Below, piece by piece: positions 2,096 to 31,919 of a DNA stretch of 43,310 nucleotides. Made by a program: the position numbers and the translations under genes. Source of the stretch: an uncultured Nitrospira sp. (GTDB lineage Bacteria > Nitrospirota > Nitrospiria > Nitrospirales > Nitrospiraceae); the NCBI GenBank assembly GCA_902500785.1, contig CABVRW010000018.1, forward strand, positions 19,582 to 62,891, in the 5' to 3' direction. Within the stretch, counting starts at the first letter, position 1. Every line of letters starts with the position of its first letter. The notes under the pieces are model-generated. The model made no database searches. It saw only the letters and a program-made list of their open reading frames with translations, and was not told the origin of the DNA.

Positions 2096-3994
2096 ATGTG
2101 TGGTGTAGTCGGAGCACTGGTCCTCTCCCCCGGTTCAGTTCGTATCTCAGAATCCTATGTAATGCGGATGAGGGACAGTCTGGTTCATCGGGGGCCGGAC
2201 GGAGCAGGGCTATGGATCGACGCTCACGGACGGATCGGTCTCGGGCATCGCCGCCTCTCGATCATCGATTTGAGCGAGGCAGCTCGGCAACCGATGACCA
2301 ACGAAGATGAAACCCTCTGGGTGGCGTTCAATGGGGAGATCTACAACCATAGAGCGATCCGGGGCGAATTGGAGGCGCTGGGCGGTCACTGCTGGCGGAC
2401 GGACCATTCGGATACCGAAGTCATCCTGCATGCGTTCGAAACCTGGGGCATCGATTGCGTGGCGAAATTTCGCGGCATGTTTGCCATTGCGCTTTGGGAT
2501 GTGCGGCGGCAAGAATTGTGGTTGATTCGCGACCGCATCGGAGTGAAGCCGCTGTATTACAGCGTGCATCACGGCCGGTTGGTCTTCGCGTCCGAGATCA
2601 AGGCATTGCTGCAGGACCCGGAGCAGCCGCGGGCGCTGCACGAGGAATCGCTCTTCCATTATCTGTCATTCCTCACGACACCGGCTCCGCAAACCTTGTT
2701 TGATGGAATCAAGAAGTTGCCTGGAGGAACCTGGTTGCGTGTGCGTGCAGATGGGACCATGGAGGAGCGTCGCTACTGGGACGTCTGGGACTACACCTCT
2801 CCCCTGATCGGGCATTCGGATGCAGACATTGCGGCGCGAGTGTTGACCCAATTGCGAGAGTCGGTCGCGCTTCGCAAAGTGAGCGATGTGCCGGTTGGTG
2901 TGTTTCTGTCCGGGGGAGTCGATTCCAGCACCAATGCAGCCTTGTTCTCGCAAGGCGAAACCCATCCCGTCAGGACATTTACGATCGGGTACGACGGGGA
3001 GTATCCAAGTTATCGCAACGAACTCGGCTATGCGCGCTTGATGGCCGACACCGTCGGCGCGGAGCATCATGAACAGCTGCTGTCGCTGGAGGATCTGCTG
3101 GCATTCTTGCCGCGGATGGTGGCATTGCAGGATGAACCGATTGCGGATCCCGTTTGTGTTCCGGTGTACTACGTGTCTCAACTAGCACGCCAGCATGGAG
3201 TGATTGTCTGTCAGGTCGGGGAGGGGGCCGATGAACTCTTTTGGGGCTATCCCTCCTGGAAAACATCCAAGATGCTGGAGGAGTGTAATCATTGGCCGGT
3301 GCCGTCGTTGTTGAAACGGCTCGGCCTTCAAGGGTTGCAATGGCTCGGTCAAGGAGAGAGCTTTCATTTTGAGCGGCTACGGCGTGGCCTGCTCAAACAG
3401 CCGGTGTTTTGGGGGGGGGCGGAGGCCTTTCCGGAAGCTTTGAAGCATCACCTGCTGTCACCGCGATTGCGGCGCCGGTTTCATGGCCTGACGTCCTGGG
3501 AGGCCATTCGGCCGATCCATGAACGGTTCCAAGCCAAGGCCTGGGAGCAGGGCCCGCTGCAGTGGATGAGCTACCTCGATCTCAATTTCAGACTCCCCGA
3601 GCTGTTGCTGATGCGAGTCGACAAAATGAGCATGGGTGCAAGCTTGGAAGCTCGGGTACCCTTTCTCGATCATGAGTTCGTGGAATTGGCCATGAGCATT
3701 CCCGAGGCGGTCAAAACCAGAGGGGGCGTCGTCAAGACTCTGCTCAAACAGGCAGTGCGCGGGGTCATTCCGGATGCGATTATCGATCGGCCGAAACAAG
3801 GGTTTGGCGTTCCTGTTCAGGAATGGATGCAGGATCGGCTCGGTACGATGATGCAGGCGACGCTCACTGAGTTCTGTAATCGGACCGATATTTTGGATAA
3901 GAATGCGGTGTTGCGTATGGTAAGAGAACAACGTGACCCTCGCAGCTGGTATCTGTTCAACCTGGCCTTGTGGTGGAACCACTACATGGTGTAG
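2096..3994 (+). CDS. asnB: Asparagine-synthase-like glutamine amidotransferase (first copy)
   Basis: A 632-residue protein with the full AsnB architecture. An N-terminal class II glutaminase domain starts at the nucleophile Cys2 (MCGVVGA) and carries HRRLSIIDLS, NGEIYN and the DTE motif. A C-terminal AMP-forming synthetase domain has the pyrophosphate loop SGGVDSS at residues 272-278. All expected active-site motifs are present. AsnB-family enzymes in polysaccharide loci often amidate a sugar carboxylate rather than make asparagine; given the heparinase-fold gene next door and a second copy at 15,823, I favour glycan amidation, but the substrate cannot be read from sequence. The gene contains a run of nine G at 3411-3419 (around residue 440). 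The start is fixed by the need for Cys at position 2. Confidence 0.9.
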   Translation: MCGVVGALVLSPGSVRISESYVMRMRDSLVHRGPDGAGLWIDAHGRIGLGHRRLSIIDLSEAARQPMTNEDETLWVAFNGEIYNHRAIRGELEALGGHCWRTDHSDTEVILHAFETWGIDCVAKFRGMFAIALWDVRRQELWLIRDRIGVKPLYYSVHHGRLVFASEIKALLQDPEQPRALHEESLFHYLSFLTTPAPQTLFDGIKKLPGGTWLRVRADGTMEERRYWDVWDYTSPLIGHSDADIAARVLTQLRESVALRKVSDVPVGVFLSGGVDSSTNAALFSQGETHPVRTFTIGYDGEYPSYRNELGYARLMADTVGAEHHEQLLSLEDLLAFLPRMVALQDEPIADPVCVPVYYVSQLARQHGVIVCQVGEGADELFWGYPSWKTSKMLEECNHWPVPSLLKRLGLQGLQWLGQGESFHFERLRRGLLKQPVFWGGAEAFPEALKHHLLSPRLRRRFHGLTSWEAIRPIHERFQAKAWEQGPLQWMSYLDLNFRLPELLLMRVDKMSMGASLEARVPFLDHEFVELAMSIPEAVKTRGGVVKTLLKQAVRGVIPDAIIDRPKQGFGVPVQEWMQDRLGTMMQATLTEFCNRTDILDKNAVLRMVREQRDPRSWYLFNLALWWNHYMV

Positions 3995-4140
3995 CAGAAT
4001 GCCGAAAAGAACCGTCGGCTTGTTCTCGCATCGTCCATGACCGCTATCTATCCTGCATGGGAAAAGATCCTGTCTCGCTTCGACCCGAGGCACCCCATGT
4101 CGATGGCCTCTTCTGACGTATTCTTTGTGGCCGCTCTGGT

Positions 4141-6261
4141 ATGAACCACGATTCCTCGATCGATCTTTCCGAACGTATTCGCTCGAAGATCCATAGCGTG
4201 GGATTGGGCGCCACCTTCCGCATGGGAGTCCGTAAAGCCGTGCGACCTCTGCTGTTGCTATGGCATCGCGCGCAAACCACGCGACGTTCCTATCAGGTGG
4301 ACAGGACAGAATTGGCGGTTGCGCTACACACGACCCCCGACGAGGTCCTCTCTGTAGTGGCCCGGATGAAGAGCGACTTTGCCCGCCGCCTGCCGATCTC
4401 GCCCGGTGATGTGCCGACGATTCGTTTTCTCTATCAAGAACGGGCGCCCGGCCTCCTTGAGGCGACCATCGAGTCAGCCGACCAGGTGTGCCACCATGTG
4501 TTCGATCTGCTGGGATCCGGCCCTGTCGTGTTGGGCGAGACCATCGATTGGCACCGGGATTTCAAAAGCGGATACCGATGGAATCCCGATCAGTGCTTTC
4601 TGGACATAGCCCATGGCCATCGGGCCGGCGTCGACATCAAAGTGCCATGGGAGCTGTCTCGCGGCCAACACTTGGTGCTGCTGGCGCAAACGGCGCTGCT
4701 GACCGGAGAATCGAAGTACTCCACCGAATGTGTGGCGCAGTGGGCCGATTGGATCGCAGCCAATCCACCAGGGTGCGGGGTTAACTGGACCTGCCCGATG
4801 GAGGTCGCCATACGCGCGGTCAATTGGTTGTGGACGCTGGCCCTTCTGACGGAGTCGCCGGTTATGAACGACGCGTGGCTGGCAGAGATCTTCGCGTCGT
4901 TGGTGGCGCATGGCCGGTTTCTCATGGCGAATCTGGAGGTCCGTGACGACGGAGTGACGACGAATCACTACCTGGCCGATGTGGTGGGCTTGCTGTATCT
5001 TGGACTGTGCTTGACGGAGGTGCGCGAAGCCGAATCCTGGCGGACCTTTGCGGTTCGCGAATTGGCGCGTGAGATGGAACGGCAGGTGCTTTCCGATGGC
5101 GTGCACTACGAATCGAGTCTGTCCTATCACCGGCTGGTGACGGAACTGTTTCTGTCTTCGGCGGTGCTCTGTCGGCAGCACAGCATAGAGTTGCCCCGTG
5201 CGTTTCACACTCGCCTGGCGAGGATGTGTGACTTTGTACAGGGCTATACGAAACCGAACGGACTGGCTCCACAAATCGGGGATGGAGACAACGGTCGTTT
5301 GCATATCCTCACCGGATACGGCCGGGTCGACGTGCGGGACCACCGCCATCTGCTTGCCGTCGGGGGACTGCTTTACGATCGGGCGGACTGGCTCGCTGGG
5401 GCGGGGCCTTCCTGGGTCGAAGGCTTGTGGTTCGGCGGGATGCGCCATATGGCGTGGGTGGAAGCGACAGCAAGCGGGGCGCCGCTGTCCCGGAGCGTGG
5501 CGTTTCCGGATGGCGGATTTTACATCCTGCGTGAGCAGAAAGATTATGTTCTATTTAACTGTAATCCCCCCGGCACGAGTGGAGTAGGAACCCATAAACA
5601 TAATGATTTGCTCTCGCTGGACATGCAGCTCGGCGGGGAAGATATTCTTGTGGATCCTGGCTGTTTTCTCTATACTTCCGATCCGCAGGCCTATAATCGA
5701 TTCCGTCGCACCGGCTACCATTCGACCGTCAGAGTAGATCAGGCAGAGCAGAATCGCGTGATTCCTGGAAAACTTTTTTGCCTGCACCCGGATAGCCGCC
5801 TGTTTGTGTTGCAGTGGGAGATCGGTCAACCGATCGAACAGGTGGTAGCGGAACATAGTGGATATGGCCGGCTTTCCGACCCGGTTCGGCATCGGCGTGA
5901 GGTGCTATACCATCGGGCAGACGGGTTGTGGCAGGTCACCGATCATCTATCGAATGTCTCCGACCGGTCTCAATCCCATCGTCTCGAGTGGACCTTGGCA
6001 TTCGCTCCCCATTGTTCTCTGCATCCCGAGGGGACTGGATGGCATGTTGTGACTTCCACGCAGCATTTGTGGCTGGAAGGTCCGCGGTTATCGGCCGCCG
6101 ACTGGTCCACGGAAATTCACCCACAGGTCGAGTTGGAGGAGATAGCGCTCCAGTACGGAGTTACATGCCCGGCTCCCTTCTTGCGTTGGAGTTGGGTGGG
6201 GCCTCTTCCCGTGAAAGGAACCTTCGCCATTTCGCGCCGGAGTCCACGCCTCATAGGATGA
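4141..6261 (+). CDS. Heparinase II/III-family protein
   Basis: A 706-residue protein with the heparinase II/III layout: an alpha-helical toroid region with IDWHRDFKSGYRW, IKVPWELSRGQHL, a WIAANPPGCGVNW segment and EVAIRAVNWLW (about residues 135-240), then a C-terminal beta domain with GTHKHNDLLSLDMQLGG and ILVDPGCFLYTSDP (about 480-515). Known members are polysaccharide lyases acting on uronic-acid polymers, and related proteins recur in exopolysaccharide clusters beside AsnB-like amidotransferases. I see no Sec signal peptide: the N-terminus is MNHDSSIDLSERIRSK, with only a short later leucine run. It could act in the cytoplasm, leave by another route, or be a non-catalytic relative. Family assignment is solid; substrate and location are unknown. 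Confidence 0.88.
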   Translation: MNHDSSIDLSERIRSKIHSVGLGATFRMGVRKAVRPLLLLWHRAQTTRRSYQVDRTELAVALHTTPDEVLSVVARMKSDFARRLPISPGDVPTIRFLYQERAPGLLEATIESADQVCHHVFDLLGSGPVVLGETIDWHRDFKSGYRWNPDQCFLDIAHGHRAGVDIKVPWELSRGQHLVLLAQTALLTGESKYSTECVAQWADWIAANPPGCGVNWTCPMEVAIRAVNWLWTLALLTESPVMNDAWLAEIFASLVAHGRFLMANLEVRDDGVTTNHYLADVVGLLYLGLCLTEVREAESWRTFAVRELAREMERQVLSDGVHYESSLSYHRLVTELFLSSAVLCRQHSIELPRAFHTRLARMCDFVQGYTKPNGLAPQIGDGDNGRLHILTGYGRVDVRDHRHLLAVGGLLYDRADWLAGAGPSWVEGLWFGGMRHMAWVEATASGAPLSRSVAFPDGGFYILREQKDYVLFNCNPPGTSGVGTHKHNDLLSLDMQLGGEDILVDPGCFLYTSDPQAYNRFRRTGYHSTVRVDQAEQNRVIPGKLFCLHPDSRLFVLQWEIGQPIEQVVAEHSGYGRLSDPVRHRREVLYHRADGLWQVTDHLSNVSDRSQSHRLEWTLAFAPHCSLHPEGTGWHVVTSTQHLWLEGPRLSAADWSTEIHPQVELEEIALQYGVTCPAPFLRWSWVGPLPVKGTFAISRRSPRLIG

Positions 6262-8847: not shown

Positions 8848-10320
8848 ATGACACTCACTAACTGTGAATCAAAATCTCCTTCTGTCGCGAGTAAACTCGC
8901 GGCTCGAGTGTCGTGGTTCTTCCTGGCGACAGCCGTTCAGGGTGGCATATCATTTGTAATGGTTCCGGTTATTACATACGTGTTGGGACCTCGCGAATTT
9001 GGAATTTTTGCCTTGATGACAGGTGTAGGAGGCTTACTTAGTCTTTTTGGTTCTCTGGGTACAGGGTATTTGTACGCCGAACATTTCTTAGGCCTTTCCG
9101 TCTCAAATAGGCGTGAGCTTGTCTCAACGACGTTTTGGATGGGAGCTGTATGCCTCGTTCCCATTACTGGTTTAGTTTTAGGACTATGGCCGGCACTTGC
9201 CGGCTATTTTACAGCATTAGCGGTCATACCGTATGTAGGAGCTAGTTTGATCTTTGTAAGCGTAGTTGCCTGTTACCCTTGGAGCTTAGCGATCGAGATC
9301 TTGGTTCTGGAAGGACGCGCTCAACTTTATGCGACTATCATTGTGAGTCAGGCAGTTGTCTCGGCAATTACGACGGTTGTGGGATTGTATGTTCTTGACT
9401 GGGGAATTTTTGCCATGTTTCTAGGTTATTCTGTTGGTACCTTGGCCTTGCTGCTCGGTTCAATGGTCGTGCTTCAGCCCTATTTGGAATGGAGCATTAA
9501 GCATGTATGGATAAAAAGGGCCGCTCGTATCGGAGGGGCCGTCACGGTTGCCAATTTGTTAGAGTCGTTGCAATCTTTCCTTGAGCGGTACCTTCTTTCG
9601 GTGCAAGCAGGCATTGTTCAGACCGGGTTATACTCTCACTCTCAACAATATAAGAATCTTGTCAGTCTACCGCTTAAAGCTGCAGCCAGAGGAATCTGGC
9701 CGATTAGTTTGGATGAAGCTCGTCTGCCGCGCTCAGAATTTCTTCTCACAAAGCGCACTTGGGAAATTGGTTATTCAGCAGTGGCTATTGCAGGAATCGG
9801 CTTTGCTATTTTCGGGAAAGAGTTGGTCGCTCTATGGACGCATGACAGATTTACTGAGGCGTATCGTATTATCGCGTTGTGGATGGTGTTTGTATTGGTT
9901 CAAAATGCTGGGAAAGCTCAAACAGCAATCTTGTATGCCACGGGCAATTCGATGCGATACGCGAAGCTGATGGTAGGGAGCGCGGTGGCTGGAATTGTTG
10001 CCTTGTTTATGCTTGTTCCATCTTTCGGAAGCACCGGGGTATTGCTGGCATTATTGCTGCAGCAAATTCTGCTCCGTATGGGTGTTCAGTACGTGGCTCG
10101 AACGATTCGACGGAGCCCATTTCAAGATGCGTGGGTCTTCATCGGTTGTGGGGGAATCATCTTGGCGCTAGTGATTGTCGAGCCGCTTTCCGGGGAGGTG
10201 TACCTACGAGTTCTCCTCTTTCTGGCCTTGGTGGTTCCCTTTGCTATGCAGCTCGCGCGTCTCGTGCTATCTGTTCTGCATGACAGAGCGAATCGAGGCA
10301 TTGAATTACCCGTATTGTAG
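8848..10320 (+). CDS. Wzx-type polysaccharide repeat-unit flippase (first copy)
   Basis: A 490-residue integral membrane protein with about a dozen hydrophobic segments spread evenly along it, as in the MATE/MVF-superfamily polysaccharide transporters (RfbX/Wzx, PST family). It begins WFFLATAVQGGISFVMVPVI after a short cytoplasmic tail, a typical first helix for the family, and ends in a basic tail. Its role would be to flip undecaprenyl-diphosphate-linked oligosaccharide across the inner membrane. It is one of the most AT-rich genes in the window (a 60-base sample at 9001-9060 counts 43% GC). A second, shorter flippase lies at 28,002. Which repeat unit each serves cannot be told from sequence. 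Confidence 0.88.
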   Translation: MTLTNCESKSPSVASKLAARVSWFFLATAVQGGISFVMVPVITYVLGPREFGIFALMTGVGGLLSLFGSLGTGYLYAEHFLGLSVSNRRELVSTTFWMGAVCLVPITGLVLGLWPALAGYFTALAVIPYVGASLIFVSVVACYPWSLAIEILVLEGRAQLYATIIVSQAVVSAITTVVGLYVLDWGIFAMFLGYSVGTLALLLGSMVVLQPYLEWSIKHVWIKRAARIGGAVTVANLLESLQSFLERYLLSVQAGIVQTGLYSHSQQYKNLVSLPLKAAARGIWPISLDEARLPRSEFLLTKRTWEIGYSAVAIAGIGFAIFGKELVALWTHDRFTEAYRIIALWMVFVLVQNAGKAQTAILYATGNSMRYAKLMVGSAVAGIVALFMLVPSFGSTGVLLALLLQQILLRMGVQYVARTIRRSPFQDAWVFIGCGGIILALVIVEPLSGEVYLRVLLFLALVVPFAMQLARLVLSVLHDRANRGIELPVL

Positions 10321-10351: not shown

Positions 10352-11197
10352 ATGATTGAGAGCCAGATGAAAAAACCTCCTTTCAATGAGACTTCTACCG
10401 ATGAACGTTTTGTCGAGGCCTTGGGGCGCTGGGCCGAAACGGCGGCAAATTTGTCATGGGTAGAACAGTGGGTTGAGGGAGCAATATTTCCTTGCGAGAT
10501 GGTCTTCTTCCTTGCACGCTGCGAGCAACTCGACATAGATGTCGTAATCGAATCTGGACGTCAGGATGGCTACTCCACGATGATTCTTGGAGAATTCATT
10601 AAGGGAAGGGAGAAGCAAGTATACTCCATCGATTACGAAGCAGACGCAGAACGGGCGAGGCGTTGTCGCGAACGTCTCAAGGCCTATTCGTCCGTCATTC
10701 CCGTCAAGGGCGACGCCAATATTCTTCTAGGGCAGTTAGTGAACCAAGTGGCCCCACGAAAAGTTGCCATGCTTGTCGATGGGCCAAAGGGGTTCTGGGC
10801 CATTGCGCTGATGTTCGCTTGTTCGGGAAACACAGCGGTGAAACTCCTGGCGCTGCACAATCTTAACCGAGGGGAAGCTCCTGGAAAGTTGCTAGGTGGC
10901 CTCGCAAACAGTCCTCTCTATTATGAGGATGTTGTTAGGCAAAGCCCCGCTTCCTGGCTCCGTCTGCGAGAGCTTGAGCGATTGCATTGCGAAAGACTCG
11001 GTGCGAGACGTTCGTTGGAATATTCTAGCCTTGGGGTTATGGAAGTGGCGGACAGAAACCGCAAGAACATTGTTCGCAAAACCAGCTGGCACTTTCGACT
11101 TCACCAGCCGCCTCTCGTTCGGATGGCCTGGAAACTCGGACTCTTTTGGCCTACGAACCGGCTGTTTGACTTATCCAATAGATTGTTTAACAAATGA
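10352..11197 (+). CDS. CmcI-like / class I methyltransferase-fold protein
   Basis: A 281-residue protein with features of the cephalosporin hydroxylase (CmcI)/class I methyltransferase fold: a first strand and loop VVIESGRQDGYST where SAM-binding motif I would sit, an acidic strand end VYSIDYEADAERARR, and a MLVDGPKGFWAI strand that matches the DGPKG-like motif of this group. Relatives in polysaccharide loci are usually predicted O-methyltransferases, but the glycine-rich motif is poor (ESGRQDG), so cofactor use is uncertain. The stop overlaps the ATG of neuB by four bases, which ties its expression to sialic-acid synthesis and makes modification of that sugar a reasonable guess. ATG 10,367 is an alternative start. 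Confidence 0.6.
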   Translation: MIESQMKKPPFNETSTDERFVEALGRWAETAANLSWVEQWVEGAIFPCEMVFFLARCEQLDIDVVIESGRQDGYSTMILGEFIKGREKQVYSIDYEADAERARRCRERLKAYSSVIPVKGDANILLGQLVNQVAPRKVAMLVDGPKGFWAIALMFACSGNTAVKLLALHNLNRGEAPGKLLGGLANSPLYYEDVVRQSPASWLRLRELERLHCERLGARRSLEYSSLGVMEVADRNRKNIVRKTSWHFRLHQPPLVRMAWKLGLFWPTNRLFDLSNRLFNK

Positions 11198-12195
11198 AAG
11201 TGTGCGTGATAGCTGAAATCGGATCCGTCCATGATGGAAGCGTGGGGAATGCCTTACGATTGATCGATGTGGTGGCGGAATGTGGGGCGGACGCCGTTAA
11301 GTTTCAAACCCACATTGGCGAAGCCGAGACGCTTCCAACCGCCCCTGCTCCATCGTTTTTTTCAACTGAACCTCGCCTAGCATATTTCAAACGGACCAGC
11401 TTTAGAGTCGACCAATGGGAAATGCTTGCACGCGTCTCGGCAGAACGTGGACTGACCTTTCTCTCGTCGCCGTTTTCAGATGAAGCCGTAGATCTACTTG
11501 AAGAGGTCGGAGTTACCCAGTACAAGATTCCTTCCGGAGAAGTCACGAATTTGCCCTTGTTAGAAAAAATAGCGCGACTAAAAAAACCCATCATCCTGTC
11601 ATCTGGGATGAGTACATGGAATGAATTAGATCGAGCGGTAGAGGTAATTCGCAAGGAGCACAATCATGTGACCATTTTACAGTGCACTAGCGAATATCCG
11701 TGCGCGTACGAGCGGGTCGGACTGAACGTCATGCTTGAGATGCGAGATCGATATAAGGTGCCGGTTGGGCTGTCTGACCATACACTTACGCCATATGCTT
11801 CGTACGCTGCGGTAACATTAGGCGCGAGTGTTATCGAGAGGCACGTAACGTTCAGTCGCAGAATGTATGGTAGCGACGCAAGACATTCACTCGAACCCGG
11901 TGAGTTCGCCGAATTGGTCAGGGGAGTGCGGGCATTAGAGGTGATCCTCACGAGCCAGGTTGAGAAGAATGATCTTTCACGCCTCAGCGGAATGAAGGAA
12001 GTCTTCGAGAAAAGCGTTGTGGCCCTCGTTGATATTCCGGCAAGCGCCATCATTACGCGGGAGATGTTAGGTATCAAGAAACCCGGGACCGGCATCCCCG
12101 CGGCGAGACTTTATGAGGTCATCGGGAAACGTGCGAGGCGAACAATTTCGGCGGCCACGCCAGTGACACCTCAAGACGTGCAAGGGCTGGATTAA
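11194..12195 (+). CDS. neuB: NeuB-family sialic/nonulosonic acid synthase
   Basis: Condenses phosphoenolpyruvate with N-acetylmannosamine or a related amino sugar to give a nine-carbon acid. The 333 residues hold a TIM-barrel synthase domain with AVKFQTH, LSSPFSDE, YKIPSGEV, LSSGMST, QCTSEYP, GLSDHTLTPY and IERHVTF, then a C-terminal SAF (antifreeze-like) domain from about residue 275 with KKPGTGIPA. Two sites differ from the textbook enzyme: the N-terminal motif reads IAEIGSVHDGS where many NeuB proteins have NHNG, and the late motif reads GSDARHSLEPGEF where many have GPDHxxSLEP. It may therefore belong to a branch with a different substrate. It overlaps the upstream gene by four bases and is followed three bases later by neuC. 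Confidence 0.88.
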   Translation: MKVCVIAEIGSVHDGSVGNALRLIDVVAECGADAVKFQTHIGEAETLPTAPAPSFFSTEPRLAYFKRTSFRVDQWEMLARVSAERGLTFLSSPFSDEAVDLLEEVGVTQYKIPSGEVTNLPLLEKIARLKKPIILSSGMSTWNELDRAVEVIRKEHNHVTILQCTSEYPCAYERVGLNVMLEMRDRYKVPVGLSDHTLTPYASYAAVTLGASVIERHVTFSRRMYGSDARHSLEPGEFAELVRGVRALEVILTSQVEKNDLSRLSGMKEVFEKSVVALVDIPASAIITREMLGIKKPGTGIPAARLYEVIGKRARRTISAATPVTPQDVQGLD

Positions 12196-12198
12196 CGG

Positions 12199-13350
12199 AT
12201 GCGAAAGATTTGTGTCTTTATTGGCTCACGAGCCAACTACAGCAGTATTAAGTCTGCAATGCAGGCAATTCAAGTTCACCCAGATTTGGAATTACAGGTT
12301 GTCGTTGGTGCCTCCGCCTTGCTGGATCGGTATGGGTCAGTTGTGGAACTCATCGAAAAAGATGGGTTCCAGCCCTTGGCGCGTGTCCACATGCTGATAG
12401 AAGGTGAAACGCCCACAACGATGGCCAAGTCGACTGGGTTGGGCCTACTCGAACTGCCGACGGTATTCGAGAAGATTTGTCCCGATATTGTATTAACGGT
12501 CGGGGACCGATTCGAAACGATGGCCACCACCCTCGCTGCCGCGTACATGAACCTTCCGCTGGCACACACCATGGGAGGAGAAGTCAGTGGGACGATAGAT
12601 GAGAGTATCCGCCACGCCGTGACGAAGTTCGCGCACATTCATTTCCCGGCTTGCTCAGAGGCACGGGACCGCATTGTGAAAATGGGGGAGCGACCTGATA
12701 TGGTTCATCTCGTCGGCTGTCCGAGGATTGATTTGGTCATGGAGGTGATCACGAAAGACCGAAGCGGGATTGGGCCAGACCTGTTTGCTGAAGGGGTGGG
12801 CGAGGCATTTGATATGGCTAAACCGTTTGTCATGGTTTCTCAACATCCAGTGACCACAGAATTTGGTGAAGGGGAACGTCAGATTACTGAAACACTACAT
12901 GCGGTCAAAAAGGTTGGCATCCCAACGATTGTCTTTTGGCCCAATGCGGACGCGGGGTCGGAAGACATTTCTCGTGGAATTAGAAAGTTTCGAGAACGGC
13001 ATGAGGATTCCGGCATGCACTTTTTCAAGAATCTTTCCGCGGAAACATATATCAGGCTGATGGCACGCACAGCTTGCCTCGTGGGGAACTCCAGTAGTGC
13101 AATACGCGAAGGCGCCTTTATTGGGACGCCGGCAGTGAACATCGGGTCCAGGCAGGAGATGCGCCAGCGCGGCCACAATGTCGTTGATGTGGGTAACGAT
13201 GCAGCTCAAATTGCGGATGCCATTCGATCGAGAATGGCGCACGGCGCCTACCCGCCGGAGAAGATCTATGGAGATGGACGTGCGGGAAAAAAAATCGCAG
13301 ATATTCTTTCCCAGTGTCAGGTCCGAATTCAGAAACGGATTACCTACTGA
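12199..13350 (+). CDS. neuC: Hydrolysing UDP-N-acetylglucosamine 2-epimerase
   Basis: Converts UDP-GlcNAc (or a diacetylated bacillosamine derivative in legionaminate makers) to free ManNAc-type sugar plus UDP. The 383 residues show the epimerase signature GSRANYSSIKSAMQAI at the N-terminus, VLTVGDRFETMATTLAAAY, the diagnostic GGEVSGTIDESIRHAVTK followed by FAHIHF, and the nucleotide-binding end VGNSSSAIREGAFIGTP. The GGEVSGTIDESIRH block is typical of the hydrolysing NeuC type rather than the non-hydrolysing WecB type. The window lacks the dehydratase, aminotransferase and acetyltransferase of the legionaminate and pseudaminate routes, which favours plain UDP-GlcNAc as substrate. An A8 run sits near the 3' end (13,287-13,294). 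Confidence 0.9.
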   Translation: MRKICVFIGSRANYSSIKSAMQAIQVHPDLELQVVVGASALLDRYGSVVELIEKDGFQPLARVHMLIEGETPTTMAKSTGLGLLELPTVFEKICPDIVLTVGDRFETMATTLAAAYMNLPLAHTMGGEVSGTIDESIRHAVTKFAHIHFPACSEARDRIVKMGERPDMVHLVGCPRIDLVMEVITKDRSGIGPDLFAEGVGEAFDMAKPFVMVSQHPVTTEFGEGERQITETLHAVKKVGIPTIVFWPNADAGSEDISRGIRKFRERHEDSGMHFFKNLSAETYIRLMARTACLVGNSSSAIREGAFIGTPAVNIGSRQEMRQRGHNVVDVGNDAAQIADAIRSRMAHGAYPPEKIYGDGRAGKKIADILSQCQVRIQKRITY

Positions 13351-13353
13351 ACC

Positions 13354-14058
13354 GTGAAGGTCTTTGGTATCATTCCGGCTCGAGGTGGGTCTAAAGCAAT
13401 TCCCAACAAGAATCTTGTTCCGCTCCTGAATAAGCCACTTCTCAGCTACACTTGTGAAGCTGCGCATCAGAGTTGTCGCCTGAGTCGCATCATTCTTTCC
13501 ACCGATAATGAAGAAATTGCGGAGGTGGGGCGATCCTGTGGAATTGACGTTCCATTTTTACGTCCTCCAGAGTTGGCGCAAGATGAGACGCCTATGCTTG
13601 ATGTTCTGCGCCATGCTCTCGCTTGGGCACGTGAGGAAGGGGACGAGCCCTGTGCCGTGGTCCTCTTGCAACCCACCTCACCCCTCCGTCGTGCCGAACA
13701 CATCGACGGCGCGATAGATCTATTCCTGTCCTCACAGGCTGACACCGTGGTCTCAGTGGTTCAAGTTCCGCATCAATACGGTCCTGCGTCACTGTTGCAG
13801 ATCGATTCCAATGGCCAGCTCCACCCGTATATGGATCAGCCGATAGTTCTTCGCAGACAGGAGAAGCCTAAGTATTACGCGCGTAATGGGCCAGCTGTAT
13901 TGGTAATAAAACCTCAAGTCTTAGAGGCAGGACAACTTTACGGAAATATCGTTCGGCCGTTTGAGATGGAGTGTGCCGACTCGGTGGATATTGATGTGAA
14001 AGACGATGTTGCCCTGGCGGAGTTTTGGCTACTTCGCAGGCGTGGTCATCATAGTTGA
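13354..14058 (+). CDS. neuA: CMP-sialic acid synthetase (acylneuraminate cytidylyltransferase)
   Basis: Activates the nonulosonic acid with CTP to give the CMP-sugar donor. The 234-residue length fits a single-domain enzyme. Visible motifs are IIPARGGSKAIPNKNL (nucleotide-binding loop; many homologues have RKN where this has NKN), ILSTDNEEIAEVGRSCG, VLLQPTSPLRR, YYARNGPAVLVIKP and the metal-site region VDIDVKDDVALAEF. The start is GTG 13,354, three bases after the neuC stop. Together the three neu genes form the minimal route from UDP-GlcNAc to a CMP-sialic acid. The following gene, also three bases away, is the best candidate for the transferase that uses the product. Confidence 0.9.
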   Translation: MKVFGIIPARGGSKAIPNKNLVPLLNKPLLSYTCEAAHQSCRLSRIILSTDNEEIAEVGRSCGIDVPFLRPPELAQDETPMLDVLRHALAWAREEGDEPCAVVLLQPTSPLRRAEHIDGAIDLFLSSQADTVVSVVQVPHQYGPASLLQIDSNGQLHPYMDQPIVLRRQEKPKYYARNGPAVLVIKPQVLEAGQLYGNIVRPFEMECADSVDIDVKDDVALAEFWLLRRRGHHS

Positions 14059-15822: not shown

Positions 15823-17793
15823 ATGTGTGGAATTGTTGGACTTGTCGGTGACGGAGCGACGACGCGAATCGCGGATATGAACAGAAGGATCCTTCATCGA
15901 GGTCCTGATGACGAAGGCTTTTATCGAGATGAAGTAAATAAAGTTGCATTAGCGATGCGGCGGCTGAGCATTCTCGACGTGGCAAATGGGCATCAACCAA
16001 TGTCGAATCGCGATGGTTCCACGTGGGTTGTCCACAATGGGGAAATATTTAACTCGCCTGAGCTGCGCCGAAAACTAGAAGCCAGCGGACATGTCTTTTC
16101 AACAGCCAACTCCGATACGGAAGTTCTCCTTCATCTGTACGACCTGAAGCAGGAAGACATGCTGGCAGATCTCAACGGGATGTTTGCCTTTGTGATTTAC
16201 GACCGTGTGCGCGGTCGACTGTTCGGTGCCCGTGATCGAATCGGAATCAAGCCTCTCTATTACATTGACCAGCCTGGGAGGTTTGCATTCGCATCTGAGC
16301 TAAAAAGTCTCCTGGTGCTTCCGGAGGTTGAACGGAAGATCGATCAGGATGCCTTATTTCATTATATGAGCCTTCGTTTTGTGCCTGGTGAGCAATCGAT
16401 CTTGCAAGGGATCCGGCGTTTGCAGCCAGGGCATTGGTTTCGGTACGACCTCCGTCGCAAACACGTCGATATTCACTCATACTGGAAGCAGACCTTTCAC
16501 CCGCAACAGGAGCGGTCGGAGGCGGAATGGGCTGAGTTGATTCGATATGAATTAAGAGAGGCCGTCCGACGTTGGGTGCTCAGCGATGTGCCGGTTGGAT
16601 GTTCACTCTCCGGGGGGGTGGATTCCTCCGCACTTATTGGTCTGTTGGCCGAACTTGGCGCTGTTCCGCTGCGGACTTATTCACTAGGATTCACGGGTTC
16701 GGGAGAGGAATCTTGGAATGAATTGCCGTTGGCCCGCAAGGTGGCAGAGCGCTGGGAGACTGAACATCACGAATTGGTCTTGGAGCCCGAAGAACTTTTG
16801 CGCGATCTTGTGAAGATGGTCTGGCATCTGGACGAACCTTATGGCGGCGGGCTTCCCTCGTGGTATGTGTTTCAATTCATGAGTCAACATGTGAAAGTCG
16901 GGCTCACAGGAACTGGTGGAGATGAGCTTTTTGGCGATTATGGACGTTACAGAAGGCTGGAAGAGCGTCGAGGAGGCCCGATTTCATCGAGGATACACCC
17001 GTCCTCTATTCGGCTTTTCCGACATTTTGATTCTCTTTGGCGATTGTCGTCACCATTGCTTTCTTACATCCCGGACCAATTGCTAGGTTTCCGCGAGAAG
17101 CATGAATGGCGGCACAGGCCGATGCTCAGCGAAGATCCTTTCCGATGGTTGTACTTCAACGCCTATTATTATTTTCCGGACGACTTAAAACGGCTCACGG
17201 TGTTCGAGGATAAGACGTCGATGCAGAAGGTGCCTGATACATCGACTGTCCTCGAAAGGTACTATCAAGCTTGCGGAACCGCGGATGCTCGGGATGCTTC
17301 GTCATTTGTAGCCTTTTCCACTCAATTGCCGGATGAGTTTCTTCTCATGACGGATCGTCTATCAATGGCCCATGCCCTCGAAGCTAGGGTTCCTTTTCTC
17401 GATCACGTTTTTGTGGACTTCATGTGTCGTATTCCTTCTAAGATCCGAACGAAGCCGGGAGATCCTAAGTATCTATTAAAGCGAGCCGTGGGTGATCTCA
17501 TTCCTAATGAGGTTCTGCGCGCACAGAAGCGAGGCTTTGTGATTCCCATTGCGCTATGGTTGCGAGGGCAATTGCGTCCCTTGGCTGAAAGGCTGCTTGC
17601 GCCGGAGCGTCTCAGAGCACAAGGGATTTTTCGTCCCAGCTTTTACGAAGCGTACGTCAGGCCTCATTGCGAAGGGCGTGCAGACTTTCATGCACAGGTT
17701 TGGACCGCCTTGATGTTCCAGATTTGGCACGTGGTTTTTATCGAGGAACAGGAGGAGGGCGTTCCTAACTTTTCATGGCGAGATCTCTGTTAA
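15823..17793 (+). CDS. asnB: Asparagine-synthase-like glutamine amidotransferase (second copy)
   Basis: A 656-residue AsnB-family protein, divergent from the one at 2,096 but with the same layout. The glutaminase domain has Cys2 (MCGIVGL), MRRLSILDVANG, the family NGE motif in VVHNGEIFN, and SDTEV. The synthetase domain has SGGVDSS at residues 263-269, GTGGDELFGDYGRY and HALEARVPFLDH. The start is ATG 15,823, with AGGATAAAAGG upstream. It follows the sialic-acid block and lies in the lower-GC region, so it may have arrived with those genes. Amidation of a carboxylated sugar such as a nonulosonic or uronic acid is a reasonable role, but ordinary asparagine synthesis is not excluded. A G7 run overlaps the pyrophosphate loop codons at 16,612-16,618. 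Confidence 0.9.
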   Translation: MCGIVGLVGDGATTRIADMNRRILHRGPDDEGFYRDEVNKVALAMRRLSILDVANGHQPMSNRDGSTWVVHNGEIFNSPELRRKLEASGHVFSTANSDTEVLLHLYDLKQEDMLADLNGMFAFVIYDRVRGRLFGARDRIGIKPLYYIDQPGRFAFASELKSLLVLPEVERKIDQDALFHYMSLRFVPGEQSILQGIRRLQPGHWFRYDLRRKHVDIHSYWKQTFHPQQERSEAEWAELIRYELREAVRRWVLSDVPVGCSLSGGVDSSALIGLLAELGAVPLRTYSLGFTGSGEESWNELPLARKVAERWETEHHELVLEPEELLRDLVKMVWHLDEPYGGGLPSWYVFQFMSQHVKVGLTGTGGDELFGDYGRYRRLEERRGGPISSRIHPSSIRLFRHFDSLWRLSSPLLSYIPDQLLGFREKHEWRHRPMLSEDPFRWLYFNAYYYFPDDLKRLTVFEDKTSMQKVPDTSTVLERYYQACGTADARDASSFVAFSTQLPDEFLLMTDRLSMAHALEARVPFLDHVFVDFMCRIPSKIRTKPGDPKYLLKRAVGDLIPNEVLRAQKRGFVIPIALWLRGQLRPLAERLLAPERLRAQGIFRPSFYEAYVRPHCEGRADFHAQVWTALMFQIWHVVFIEEQEEGVPNFSWRDLC

Positions 17794-22994: not shown

Positions 22995-24170
22995 GTGGAG
23001 AGAGGGGCATCCACTCATAAGATCCTGATGGCCTGCGCCAATTACTGGACGACTCCGTTCCAAGTGGGAAGCCACCATTTGGCTCGGGGGTTCGTGGACG
23101 CCGGTTGGACGGTCGGGTTCATTTCAGATCCCATTTCTCCGCTGCATCTCTTGGGGGGAGCTCGGAAAGAATTGGCGAGCAGGTTTCGACTCTACCGCGC
23201 CGGTGGTATGTGGGATCTCGAGAAAAATCTCTGGACCTACGTTCCAGGAGCGTTGGCCACCCCGCGCAAACAGCCGCTGCTTCGCAGTCACGCCCTTGAG
23301 CGCGGGTGGGCCAGCCTGACATGGCCTTCACTCGGAGACACCGTGCGGAGCCACGGATTCGGTGAAGTTGAGTTGTTGTACTGCGATAGTCCCAAGCATC
23401 TGTCCTGGTTGTCTCAGATTACCCGCGCGCGAACCATATTTCGGGTTGCCGACAACACCGCGGGGTTCGGGCGAACGACGCCTGCCGCACGAGCGGCTGA
23501 GCGGGAGCTGGCCGGCGCCGCCGATTTGGTGGTGTATAGTGCGGAGACCTTGAAAGAGTATGTGGAGAGCTTGAAGCCGCGTCGCATGGCCCATTTGCCG
23601 AATGGCGTGAATTTTTCTCATTTTGCCAGGCCTGATGTGCCTGTTCCCTCCGAATATGCCTCGATTCGGCGGCCCATTGCCGTCTATGCGGGCTACATGG
23701 ACGCCTGGTTTGACTACGCGCTGTTGAATCGTGTCGTAGCGTCATTGCCGGACGTCTCGTTCGTGCTCATCGGGGGAAGCAATCATGCCCATGCCAGGTT
23801 CGCGCCTGCGCCGAACCTGTATTTACTCGGGCCCCGGCCGTTTTCACGTTTGCCGGAGTACTTACGGGCCGCGGATGTGGGGATCATCCCGTTCGACGTA
23901 CAAGGTCATCCGACGCTCGTGCATAGTATCCATCCCCTGAAGCTCTATGAATACCTCGCTGCAGGGCTTCCCGTGGTCGCTACCCGCTGGAGGGAGCTGG
24001 AGCGTTTGCAGAGCCCGGCGAAGCTGTGTGTATCGGCGGCAGAATTCTCCGGCGCAGTGGCAGCCAGTGTGTCGGAGTCGCCTCGGCGCGCAGAATATTC
24101 GCGATTTGCACAGCAGGCCGATTGGAAGCACCGCGTTCTCCGTCTGCTGGATCTCGCATTTTCTGAGTGA
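22995..24170 (+). CDS. Glycosyltransferase family 1/4-type enzyme
   Basis: A 391-residue GT-B glycosyltransferase starting at GTG 22,995, directly after the preceding stop; GTG or ATG codons a few residues further in are possible starts. Visible are YWTTPFQVGSHHLARGF at the N-terminus, VVYSAETLKEY and HLPNGVNFSHF at the domain linker, and FVLIGGSN, ADVGIIPF and KLYEYLAAGLPVVAT in the donor domain, where KLYEYLAAG is the acidic-loop motif of TuaH-like members. The C-terminus is complete. The following gene has its own ribosome-binding site just after this stop. Role: adds a sugar to the repeat unit; specificity not deducible. Confidence 0.87.
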   Translation: MERGASTHKILMACANYWTTPFQVGSHHLARGFVDAGWTVGFISDPISPLHLLGGARKELASRFRLYRAGGMWDLEKNLWTYVPGALATPRKQPLLRSHALERGWASLTWPSLGDTVRSHGFGEVELLYCDSPKHLSWLSQITRARTIFRVADNTAGFGRTTPAARAAERELAGAADLVVYSAETLKEYVESLKPRRMAHLPNGVNFSHFARPDVPVPSEYASIRRPIAVYAGYMDAWFDYALLNRVVASLPDVSFVLIGGSNHAHARFAPAPNLYLLGPRPFSRLPEYLRAADVGIIPFDVQGHPTLVHSIHPLKLYEYLAAGLPVVATRWRELERLQSPAKLCVSAAEFSGAVAASVSESPRRAEYSRFAQQADWKHRVLRLLDLAFSE

Positions 24171-30518: not shown

Positions 30519-31919
30519 ATGCTCAAACGCCACTCCCAATTTCTCAAGAGTCTGCTGTTCTGTATCGATCTCGGGCTGATTTGCGCCTGCTGGATCGGCG
30601 CCTACTATCTTCGTTTCTCAGAGTTTATTGAACCGGCACCCAAGGGAATTCCTCCCTTGGATATCTATCTCCTGCTGCTCGTTCCGATCGTCGCGGTCTG
30701 GGGCATGTCGTTTCAAGCCTTCGACCTCTACCGGCCTCGCCGGATGGGGACGCGTCTCGCCGAATTTCTGGATGTGGCCAAAGCCAACACCCTCTCGGTA
30801 CTGATTCTGGTCGCCCTGACGTTCTTTCTTCGACAATACGAATATTCCCGATTGGTGCTGTTGTATTTCTGGCTGTTGAATCTTGTCGCGCTGGGCTTTT
30901 CGCGCGTCCTGTTTCGGGAAGCGCTACGATTCCTGCGCCGGCATGGGTACAATCAACGTCATGCGCTGATCATCGGTGCCAGTCGATTGGGTCGCCGGGT
31001 GGTGACGGCGCTGGCGGAGCATCCGGAACTGGGCGTTCACGTGCAAGGGTTTTTGAGCGCGGATCCTGGAAAAGTGGGCGAATGTATCCATAATGTTCCG
31101 GTCCTGGGACGGTACGATGATCTGGAAGAACTCGTCCAATCGGGCATCGACATCGTTTTTGTCTGTCTTCCTCCCGAAGACGAACAGTGGGCGGAGAAGA
31201 TGTTTGTCTATCTGGCCACGACCATGGTCGAAGTGAAGGCCTTGCCGGCGATGTGCGAGTTTGTGAGTTTACGGGCGGAAGCCGAGATGTTCGAGGGCCT
31301 CCCGTTGATCACGTTGCAAGGATCGCCGTTGTACGGGTGGAATTTGGTCATCAAACGGGTGTTGGATGTGGTCGGCGCATCGGCTGCGTTGGTCTTGTTC
31401 TCACCGCTGTTGTGCGCGGTGGCGTCCTTGGTGAAACTGACCTCTCCCGGTCCGATCTTTTTCCGTCAGCTCCGCATGGGATTGGACGGGCAGGCGTTTG
31501 AAATGTTGAAGTTCCGGTCGATGAAAGTCGATGCCGAGTCCGAAACCGGTCCGGTCTGGACGCAACCCAACGATGATCGCCGGACTTCTATCGGAGCGTT
31601 TTTGCGTCGCACGAGTTTGGACGAGCTGCCGCAATTCTGGAACGTGTTGCGCGGGGAGATGAGCATCGTCGGGCCCAGGCCGGAACGGCCGGAATTTATC
31701 GCGCGATTTCGTGAGACTCTGCCGCAGTATATGTTGCGGCACAAGATGAAAGCAGGGATTACCGGCTGGGCGCAAATCAACGGCTGGCGCGGCAACACGT
31801 CGCTGGAAAAACGAATCGAGCATGACCTGTACTATATTGAACATTGGTCGATCTGGTTTGACTTAAAGATCATGCTGCTCACGGTTTGGCGAGGGTTTAT
31901 CCATCGGCATGCCTACTGA
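30519..31919 (+). CDS. Undecaprenyl-phosphate phosphoglycosyltransferase, WcaJ-type
   Basis: A 466-residue polyisoprenyl-phosphate hexose-1-phosphate transferase that starts repeat-unit synthesis by moving sugar-1-phosphate, typically glucose, onto undecaprenyl phosphate. The N-terminal half has four hydrophobic segments, then a Rossmann-like region (HALIIGASRLGRRVV). The C-terminal catalytic domain (about 275-466) has KRVLDVVGASAAL, SPGPIFFRQLRMG, FEMLKFRSM, the DE motif in RRTSLDELPQFWN (about 363-375), MSIVGPRPERPEF and GITGWAQINGWRG. The gene starts at ATG 30,519 with AGAGGGAG immediately upstream, and is the last glycan-assembly gene of the locus. The class is certain; glucose versus another sugar is not. 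Confidence 0.93.
   Translation: MLKRHSQFLKSLLFCIDLGLICACWIGAYYLRFSEFIEPAPKGIPPLDIYLLLLVPIVAVWGMSFQAFDLYRPRRMGTRLAEFLDVAKANTLSVLILVALTFFLRQYEYSRLVLLYFWLLNLVALGFSRVLFREALRFLRRHGYNQRHALIIGASRLGRRVVTALAEHPELGVHVQGFLSADPGKVGECIHNVPVLGRYDDLEELVQSGIDIVFVCLPPEDEQWAEKMFVYLATTMVEVKALPAMCEFVSLRAEAEMFEGLPLITLQGSPLYGWNLVIKRVLDVVGASAALVLFSPLLCAVASLVKLTSPGPIFFRQLRMGLDGQAFEMLKFRSMKVDAESETGPVWTQPNDDRRTSIGAFLRRTSLDELPQFWNVLRGEMSIVGPRPERPEFIARFRETLPQYMLRHKMKAGITGWAQINGWRGNTSLEKRIEHDLYYIEHWSIWFDLKIMLLTVWRGFIHRHAY

Follow-up and report, generated by a model that had tools for sequence, protein, structure and literature searches.

Organization of the Locus

The hep gene encodes a heparinase II/III-fold protein and lies in a polysaccharide synthesis locus of the window, i.e., the whole stretch of 43,310 nucleotides analysed here (Table 1). 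The first part of the locus contains GMD, a GDP-fucose synthase-like gene, AsnB1, hep, a sugar epimerase, a GT4 glycosyltransferase, Wzx, and NeuB/NeuC/cytidylyltransferase genes. The rest comprises AsnB2, methyltransferases, a GumK-like glycosyltransferase, a GT4 glycosyltransferase, a Wzy_C-GT4 fusion, a WcaJ-type transferase, ManC, and ManB. As originally predicted, hep is thus embedded in a Wzx/Wzy-dependent locus: an initiating phosphotransferase of the WcaJ type, a Wzx flippase, and a Wzy polymerase domain are present together with two AsnB-like genes, the Wzy_C domain being one that is also common to O-antigen ligases. An assignment as an XrtA/PEP-CTERM locus was rejected, the AsnB-like proteins reaching 490.8 and 477.4 of the 816.9 bits of TIGR03108; AsnB1 passes the general asparagine synthase model only. 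A scan of 30 window ORFs detected no nucleotide-sugar dehydrogenase domain, and UDP-sugar dehydrogenase-like genes of the same genome lie on other contigs (C7 and C52), among the matches listed.

Table 1. Features of the hep gene, its product, and the surrounding locus, with positions in the window.
Feature	Positions	Strand	Basis or remark
AsnB1, asparagine synthase-like amidotransferase, directly 5' of hep	2096..3994	+	
In-frame TGA closing the hep frame, 8 codons 5' of the ATG	4114..4116	+	
hep, heparinase II/III-fold protein, 706 aa	4141..6261	+	Pfam domains; no signal peptide seen
Basic helical N-terminal segment, residues 1–45	4141..4275	+	kept in orthologues; low model confidence here
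Asn275-His276	4963..4968	+	Asn275 aligned with catalytic PL12 position of Pedobacter HepIII
Tyr329	5125..5127	+	aligned with PL12 acid/base Tyr294
His485-Lys-His487	5593..5601	+	His485 aligned with PL12 position; His487 completes HxH motif
Tyr511, candidate second tyrosine (cf. PL33 Tyr470)	5671..5673	+	spacing, not superposition
His527	5719..5721	+	aligned with PL12 position; His in 40/40
Wzx-like flippase	8848..10320	+	Polysacc_synt above cut-off
AsnB2, second asparagine synthase-like amidotransferase	15823..17793	+	
GumK-like glucuronosyltransferase	22995..24170	+	GumK_N E 7.7e-18
Wzy_C domain fused to GT4 glycosyltransferase, 895 aa	25318..28005	+	Wzy_C above cut-off
Undecaprenyl-phosphate glucose phosphotransferase, WcaJ-type	30519..31919	+	WcaJ cut-off passed

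Two further stretches of the locus deserve mention. In the NeuB-NeuC-cytidylyltransferase trio (11194–14058), NeuC scores over the NCBIfam cut-off and NeuB and the cytidylyltransferase score below it, so that a nonulosonic acid is predicted but its kind is not clear. Between Wzx and NeuB, a 281-aa ORF (10352–11197) has no Pfam or NCBIfam match, and tblastn gave no counterpart in the parts of the six orthologous loci that were read.

The hep Gene and Its Product

The hep product contains both domains of the heparinase II/III superfamily, Hepar_II_III_N (PF16889, E 2.9e-35, 122.6 bits against a cut-off of 22) and Hepar_II_III_C (PF07940, E 1.1e-30, 107.4 bits against a cut-off of 24). The family assignment first made from the letters alone is therefore sound, as both scores lie far above the curated cut-offs. 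The product does not reach the NCBIfam equivalog models for HepC (90.3 of 700 bits for NF045573 and 66.6 of 600 bits for NF045572). The annotated start, which the original prediction had made a condition of its argument, also holds for the window gene: the frame is shut eight codons upstream by the in-frame TGA, which excludes a longer N-terminus. With dN/dS values of 0.17–0.23 against five orthologues, which are rough because dS exceeds 1 in four of the five pairs, hep is a real gene under purifying selection. A search of its own genome gave no second match of this kind. The nearest named relative (L002, 86%) lies on a contig from a metagenome-assembled genome that bears the name Nitrospira defluvii, and it was also the one relative found in a scan of genome contigs.

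For the comparisons below, the hep product of the window (P0001) was combined with 39 relatives: alignment A1 holds 30 proteins, P0001 included, and 10 more come from plasmids. Start codons of the relatives were picked by hand; L017, a truncated frame, was left out of A1, and L053, annotated in two pieces, out of the residue and leader tables. In L053 (8944–10741, Rhizobium sp. CC-CFT758), the heparinase gene is annotated as two overlapping CDS, perhaps because of a frameshift.

The first 60 residues of the hep product carry a net charge of +6. An N-terminal amphipathic membrane helix was rejected, since a fraction of 0.11–0.63 of shuffled sequences scored as high in P0001 and L002–L008. In 8 of the 40 proteins (L013, L021, L025, L027, L054, L056, L057, and L058), the N-terminus bears a shared R-L-x-x-M-S-P-x-E-hydrophobic-x-x-R motif, a pattern defined post hoc, at the position where HepC carries its leader.

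Conservation within the Genus

In the phylum sample, 61 of 295 genomes gave a match at 1e-10. Orthologues of hep at 65–68% identity occur in six genomes of the same genus (G127, G094, G055, G115, G143, and G224), and in these six loci the order GMD (91–95%), Fcl (84–89%), AsnB1 (81–90%), and hep is kept. In all seven same-genus genomes carrying hep, the gene stays behind AsnB1, and this conservation suggests a routine role. The GumK-like glycosyltransferase (55–85%) and WcaJ (87–92%) follow hep in the five loci read further downstream; in G224, both are on another contig. Across the six loci, Wzx is 25–26% identical or, in G115, was not found. The search for GumK_N covered 30 heparinase-bearing genomes, of which 10 belong to this genus; the domain was found in seven, the very seven with a hep orthologue. 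As this co-occurrence is confined to one genus and one homologous locus, it counts as a single event, showing joint retention of the two genes and not repeated gain.

Compared with the six orthologous loci, the locus (61–35575) is a mosaic, with outer genes such as GMD, AsnB1, WcaJ, ManC, and ManB at 81–96% where read, whereas the inner genes Wzx, GT4_a, NeuB, and NeuC are at 25–49% or missing. Serotype-switching loci are likewise mosaic, with conserved outer and divergent inner genes. The Wzy_C-GT4 fusion (25318–28005) has near full-length matches in four of the six loci (coverage 0.96–0.99, 51–54%); it was not matched in G055, and the stretch from G224 ends before it.

Active Site

In alignments, Asn275, Tyr329, His485, and His527 of the hep product correspond to chain positions 216, 270, 400, and 445 of Pedobacter HepIII, which were counted by hand with an offset of 24 to the published numbering. 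Positions 216, 400, and 445 are those that we take to be Asn240, His424, and His469. Position 270 corresponds to Tyr294, given as the acid/base of PL12 enzymes in the PL33 report (PMC11848413). The original prediction had called for the catalytic His and Tyr residues to be aligned with known lyases; in this alignment, the catalytic Asn, Tyr, His, and His of PL12 are all intact in the hep product. His487 and Tyr511 extend the comparison to other members of the fold. In DS-epi1, His450 and the metal-binding His452 lie on one loop (PMC8006597), and by analogy they may be likened to the HxH motif of the hep product, where HepC has Gln at the position of His487. Based on alignment and spacing, His276, Tyr329, and Tyr511 are candidates for a His/double-Tyr site of the DS-epimerase type.

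Among the 40 proteins, Asn275 is found in 34, His276 in 36, Tyr329 in 39, His485, His487, and Tyr511 in 37 each, and His527 in all. All seven positions are intact in 30 proteins, including P0001 and its seven closest relatives (L002–L008), so that, judged from these residues, the hep product is catalytically intact within the genus. The positions are likewise intact in the plasmid relatives from Shinella and Rhizobium rhizoryzae. At least one position is altered in the other ten, i.e., L010, L014, L022, L023, L026, L028, L029, the Deinococcus protein, and both Sphingobium proteins. The Deinococcus protein (L052) has Ala, Ser, and His at 275, 276, and 329, and a pairwise alignment agrees; both Sphingobium proteins have Pro and Gln at 485 and 487. 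In seven proteins (L022, L026, L028, L029, L052, L061, and L069), the changes are Pro/Gln at 485/487, His-Asp for Asn-His, or Ala/Ser/His at 275/276/329, and these proteins perhaps represent non-catalytic or differently acting branches.

Altered sites of this kind would be in line with a fold used for binding and not for catalysis, serving as a scaffold or in length control of an assembly complex, and the ten deviating proteins, among them a Deinococcus protein without Asn275, His276, and Tyr329, lend this idea some substance. The seven intact positions in P0001 and L002–L008 argue against a non-catalytic factor here, and we regard such a role for the hep product as improbable.

Predicted Structure and Fold Relatives

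The AlphaFold model of the hep product, built from alignment A1 (pLDDT 86.8, pTM 0.89), is predicted to adopt an α-toroid plus β-sandwich fold, as indicated by the model and its matches. Foldseek ranked PL12 first (4mmi, E 1.9e-24), followed by PL17, PL15, PL33, and DS-epi1 among others; the human DS-epi1 structure 6hzn was found with an E value of 3e-12 and a TM score of 0.60 by query length. With VIA-align, the model matched 4mmh with a Z score of 29.3 and an rmsd of 6.9 over 551 aligned residues, and 6hzn with a Z score of 23.0 and an rmsd of 3.9 over 540 residues, with 12% identity over the latter structural alignment. DS-epi1 (6hzn) was absent from the 32 profile matches of the hep product. 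AlgL is also listed as a fold neighbor. Structural matches mostly begin at residue 53 or later of the hep product, and at residue 20 for exoHep.

The fold that the model shares with lyases and with DS-epi1 does not in itself show a function. The PL33 paper (PMC11848413) describes lyases and DS-epi1 as having the fold and the greater part of the catalytic machinery in common, and the DS-epi1 authors proposed that minute active-site changes can convert one activity, that of a lyase, into the other, that of an epimerase (PMC8006597). Epimerases and lyases could not be told apart by any of the sequence features considered. The nearest sequence relatives with known function are lyases, PL12 lyases are its closest sequence matches among solved structures, and the four PL12 catalytic positions match. 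These likenesses would fit a cytoplasmic lyase of the synthesis pathway performing β-elimination at the uronic acid of a lipid-linked unit or a stray oligosaccharide, either clearing faulty intermediates off the carrier or leaving an unsaturated uronic acid cap. However, to destroy an intermediate that the neighboring genes have built would presumably be futile unless the reaction were tightly gated, and the gene is kept in all seven genus loci carrying it; we consider this lyase unlikely.

Compartment

No signal peptide is evident in the hep product. By a home-made rule, 0 of the 40 heparinase-fold proteins were flagged with a leader at the chosen start, and this, together with the closed frame in the window, bears out the original observation that a leader is lacking. 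The same rule flagged the catabolic HepC of Bacteroides (L060) and six of nine other positive controls, missing DegP, GumC, and a Tat protein, and it flagged none of four negative controls. None of the six candidate starts in the frame of the hep product was signal-peptide-like by this rule.

A wider scan of 42 loci took in 189 candidate starts, beginning at the upstream stop and ending 50 codons inside the protein; 12 loci were flagged, including the HepC control. In the other eleven, the flagged start is upstream in L069, both upstream and internal in L006, and internal in the remaining nine; their cores are weak (1.3–1.9 vs. 2.9 in HepC), and these flags are regarded as false positives of a lenient rule. 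A missed upstream start with a leader is ruled out for the window gene by the in-frame stop. In the G143 orthologue, the reading frame opens just past the end of AsnB1.

The cysteine content hints only weakly, if at all, at a reducing compartment. The hep product has 13 cysteines (1.84%), compared with 7 in the 666 residues of HepC and 0 in the 514 residues of the window's DegP, but the argument is weak because the window's cytoplasmic proteins range down to 0.3% cysteine. Taken with the missing leader, the hep product is probably located in the cytoplasm. The original prediction placed the characterised lyases of this family outside the cytoplasm or in the periplasm. Cytoplasmic degraders do exist in the heparinase superfamily, such as the oligoalginate lyase of Sphingomonas A1, so that a missing leader alone does not exclude a lyase.

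Alternatively, the protein might be exported with neither a Sec nor a Tat leader and trim or epimerise the finished polymer outside, in the manner of AlgL. The fold neighbors include AlgL, which is listed as periplasmic, and the catabolic HepC does have a leader. Against this stands the count of 0 in 40 proteins flagged at the chosen start, and leaderless export appears very unlikely to us.

Relatives on Plasmids and in Other Phyla

The comparison of gene neighborhoods covers 26 proteins of the set of 40 (the window, 15 genomes, and 10 plasmids). In 14 of the 15 genome neighborhoods, labelled by BLAST against a small reference set, several genes resemble polysaccharide synthesis genes; G083 has only weak labels. 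Relatives of hep occur in 23 plasmid records, 16 of which were examined; three regions without annotation (L072–L074) were left out of the context count. The 13 annotated plasmid regions comprise 11 polysaccharide loci, from Deinococcota, Pseudomonadota, Actinomycetota, Bacillota, and Nitrospirota, and two catabolic-looking ones (L060 and L071).

L071, the Halomontanus relative, has no flagged leader and lies beside an ABC transporter with no synthesis genes. As cytoplasmic oligoalginate lyases exist, the hep product could likewise be a catabolic lyase of imported uronic-acid oligosaccharides that is merely located in the locus. The synthesis-type genes in 14 of 15 genome neighborhoods and 11 of 13 annotated plasmid regions speak against this, as does the lack of uptake genes in the scanned part of the window's ORFs, and a catabolic role is accordingly given little probability.

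Of the 11 plasmid synthesis loci, 9 contain a nucleotide-sugar dehydrogenase within 9 kb, compared with 0 of 10 controls (Fisher p 2e-4). These figures should be read with the nature of both sets in mind: the plasmid loci are partly related (Rhizobium/Shinella and two Sphingobium), the controls are loci around initiating transferases hand-picked from 30 listed of 835 records, some of them outside full clusters, and the plasmid gene table is incomplete. One control (L083) contains a UDP-glucuronic acid decarboxylase, which shows that uronic acid metabolism also occurs outside hep loci. Dehydrogenase, GT4, and hep lie side by side in four plasmid loci (L052, in another order, L053, L054, and L058). 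Three of the nine dehydrogenase-linked proteins have changed active sites (Deinococcus and two Sphingobium), and a fourth (L053) is in two pieces. The linkage was not confirmed across the phylum: in a set of 30 genomes, with one second gene piece (G139) left out, a dehydrogenase was found within 6 kb of 4 of the 53 heparinase-domain genes and of 1 of the 83 controls; the corresponding counts are 4 and 8 at 12 kb, and 5 and 8 at 25 kb.

The association with AsnB over controls is weak. An AsnB match within 5 kb was found for 9 of the 27 heparinase-domain genes and 4 of the 38 controls (p 0.03), and the p value is 0.08 at 8 kb and 0.10 at 15 kb; this count leaves out matches weaker than about 1e-40 and includes the hep place of G214, added from the phylum search. 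AsnB lies close to the hep relative in 2 of the 11 plasmid synthesis loci, directly upstream in Deinococcus L052 and one gene away in Streptomyces L056. In Deinococcus, the relative sits between asnB and the dehydrogenase, and the wider locus also encodes a flippase and a member of the O-antigen ligase family. The pairing with AsnB-like genes in other phyla, to which the original prediction pointed, is seen in these individual cases.

Proposed Function

The missing leader at a correct start and the position in a synthesis locus make intracellular action on an assembly intermediate the best reading. The original suggestion of cytoplasmic action on lipid-linked intermediates is supported in part. 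Specifically, we tentatively propose, with somewhat less than even confidence, that the hep product is a cytoplasmic C5-epimerase that modifies a uronic acid in the lipid-linked repeat during assembly, with a lyase as the next candidate. The lipid-linked substrate, the uronic acid target, and epimerase rather than lyase activity are each inferred. C5-epimerisation is favored over β-elimination because cutting a nascent unit would seem futile.

In the proposed mechanism, the GumK-like transferase would add glucuronic acid to the undecaprenyl-linked oligosaccharide at the inner membrane face, and the simplest place for the hep product would be this cytoplasmic face, acting on the uronic acid so added. 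A Tyr/His pair would remove the C5 proton, and a proton would be given back on the opposite face, yielding the C5 epimer, e.g., L-iduronic from D-glucuronic acid. The epimerised unit would then be flipped by Wzx and polymerised by Wzy. By analogy, the AsnB-like neighbors may amidate the same or another uronic acid. Such amidation, which converts the uronic acid carboxyl into a uronamide, is described for WbpS-type amidotransferases (PMC6025236), and it offers a possible role for the AsnB-like neighbors, not for the hep product. Extended to its relatives, the C5-epimerase proposal becomes more doubtful: it is conceivable that an intracellular branch of heparinase II/III proteins in five bacterial phyla edits the uronic acid of lipid-linked units before flipping, by C5-epimerisation and perhaps with AsnB-like amidation.

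In the plasmid records, genes of the hep type are named as members of the alginate lyase or heparinase II/III family and would be read as degraders. If hep-type proteins are assembly enzymes, such annotations mislead, it becomes possible to test where some bacterial surface polysaccharides obtain their L-uronic acids, and soluble bacterial epimerases for making iduronic-acid glycans might follow.

Comparison with Known Systems

Among the open-access papers searched, none on the function of heparinase-fold genes in wzx, O-antigen, or exopolysaccharide clusters was found. Passages of PMC11340318, PMC13262394, and PMC4784049 contain nothing on heparinase genes of this type, and in PMC13262394 heparinase appears as a degrader. 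The hep product apparently represents an uncharacterised leaderless branch of a known family.

Its best sequence and fold match is PL12 heparinase III/HepC (Pedobacter 4mmh; Bacteroides 4fnv and 5jmd), with which it shares Asn/Tyr/His/His. Unlike HepC, it has no signal peptide and belongs to a synthesis locus; HepIII has HxQPD in the alignments where the hep product has HxHxD, a motif that also occurs in the alignment with the alginate lyase 6jp4. The alginate and glycosaminoglycan lyases of PL15, PL17, PL21, and PL33 have the two-domain fold of toroid and β-sheet and the catalytic Tyr in common with the hep product, but are degradative and match it less well in sequence than PL12.

AlgL and AlgG, the lyase and the C5-epimerase of the alginate synthesis operon, differ from the proposed enzyme in being periplasmic, in acting on the finished polymer, and in belonging to a synthase-dependent system; the fold of AlgG is also different. 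WbpS resembles AsnB. DS-epi1 has the predicted fold in common with the hep product, shares the HxH motif by analogy, and acts during synthesis. Yet, it is a luminal Golgi membrane protein with the polymer as substrate (PMC8006597), unlike the proposed cytoplasmic enzyme. In alginate and glycosaminoglycans, stereochemistry is set on the polymer, whereas in the proposed hep branch it would be set before flipping and polymerisation.
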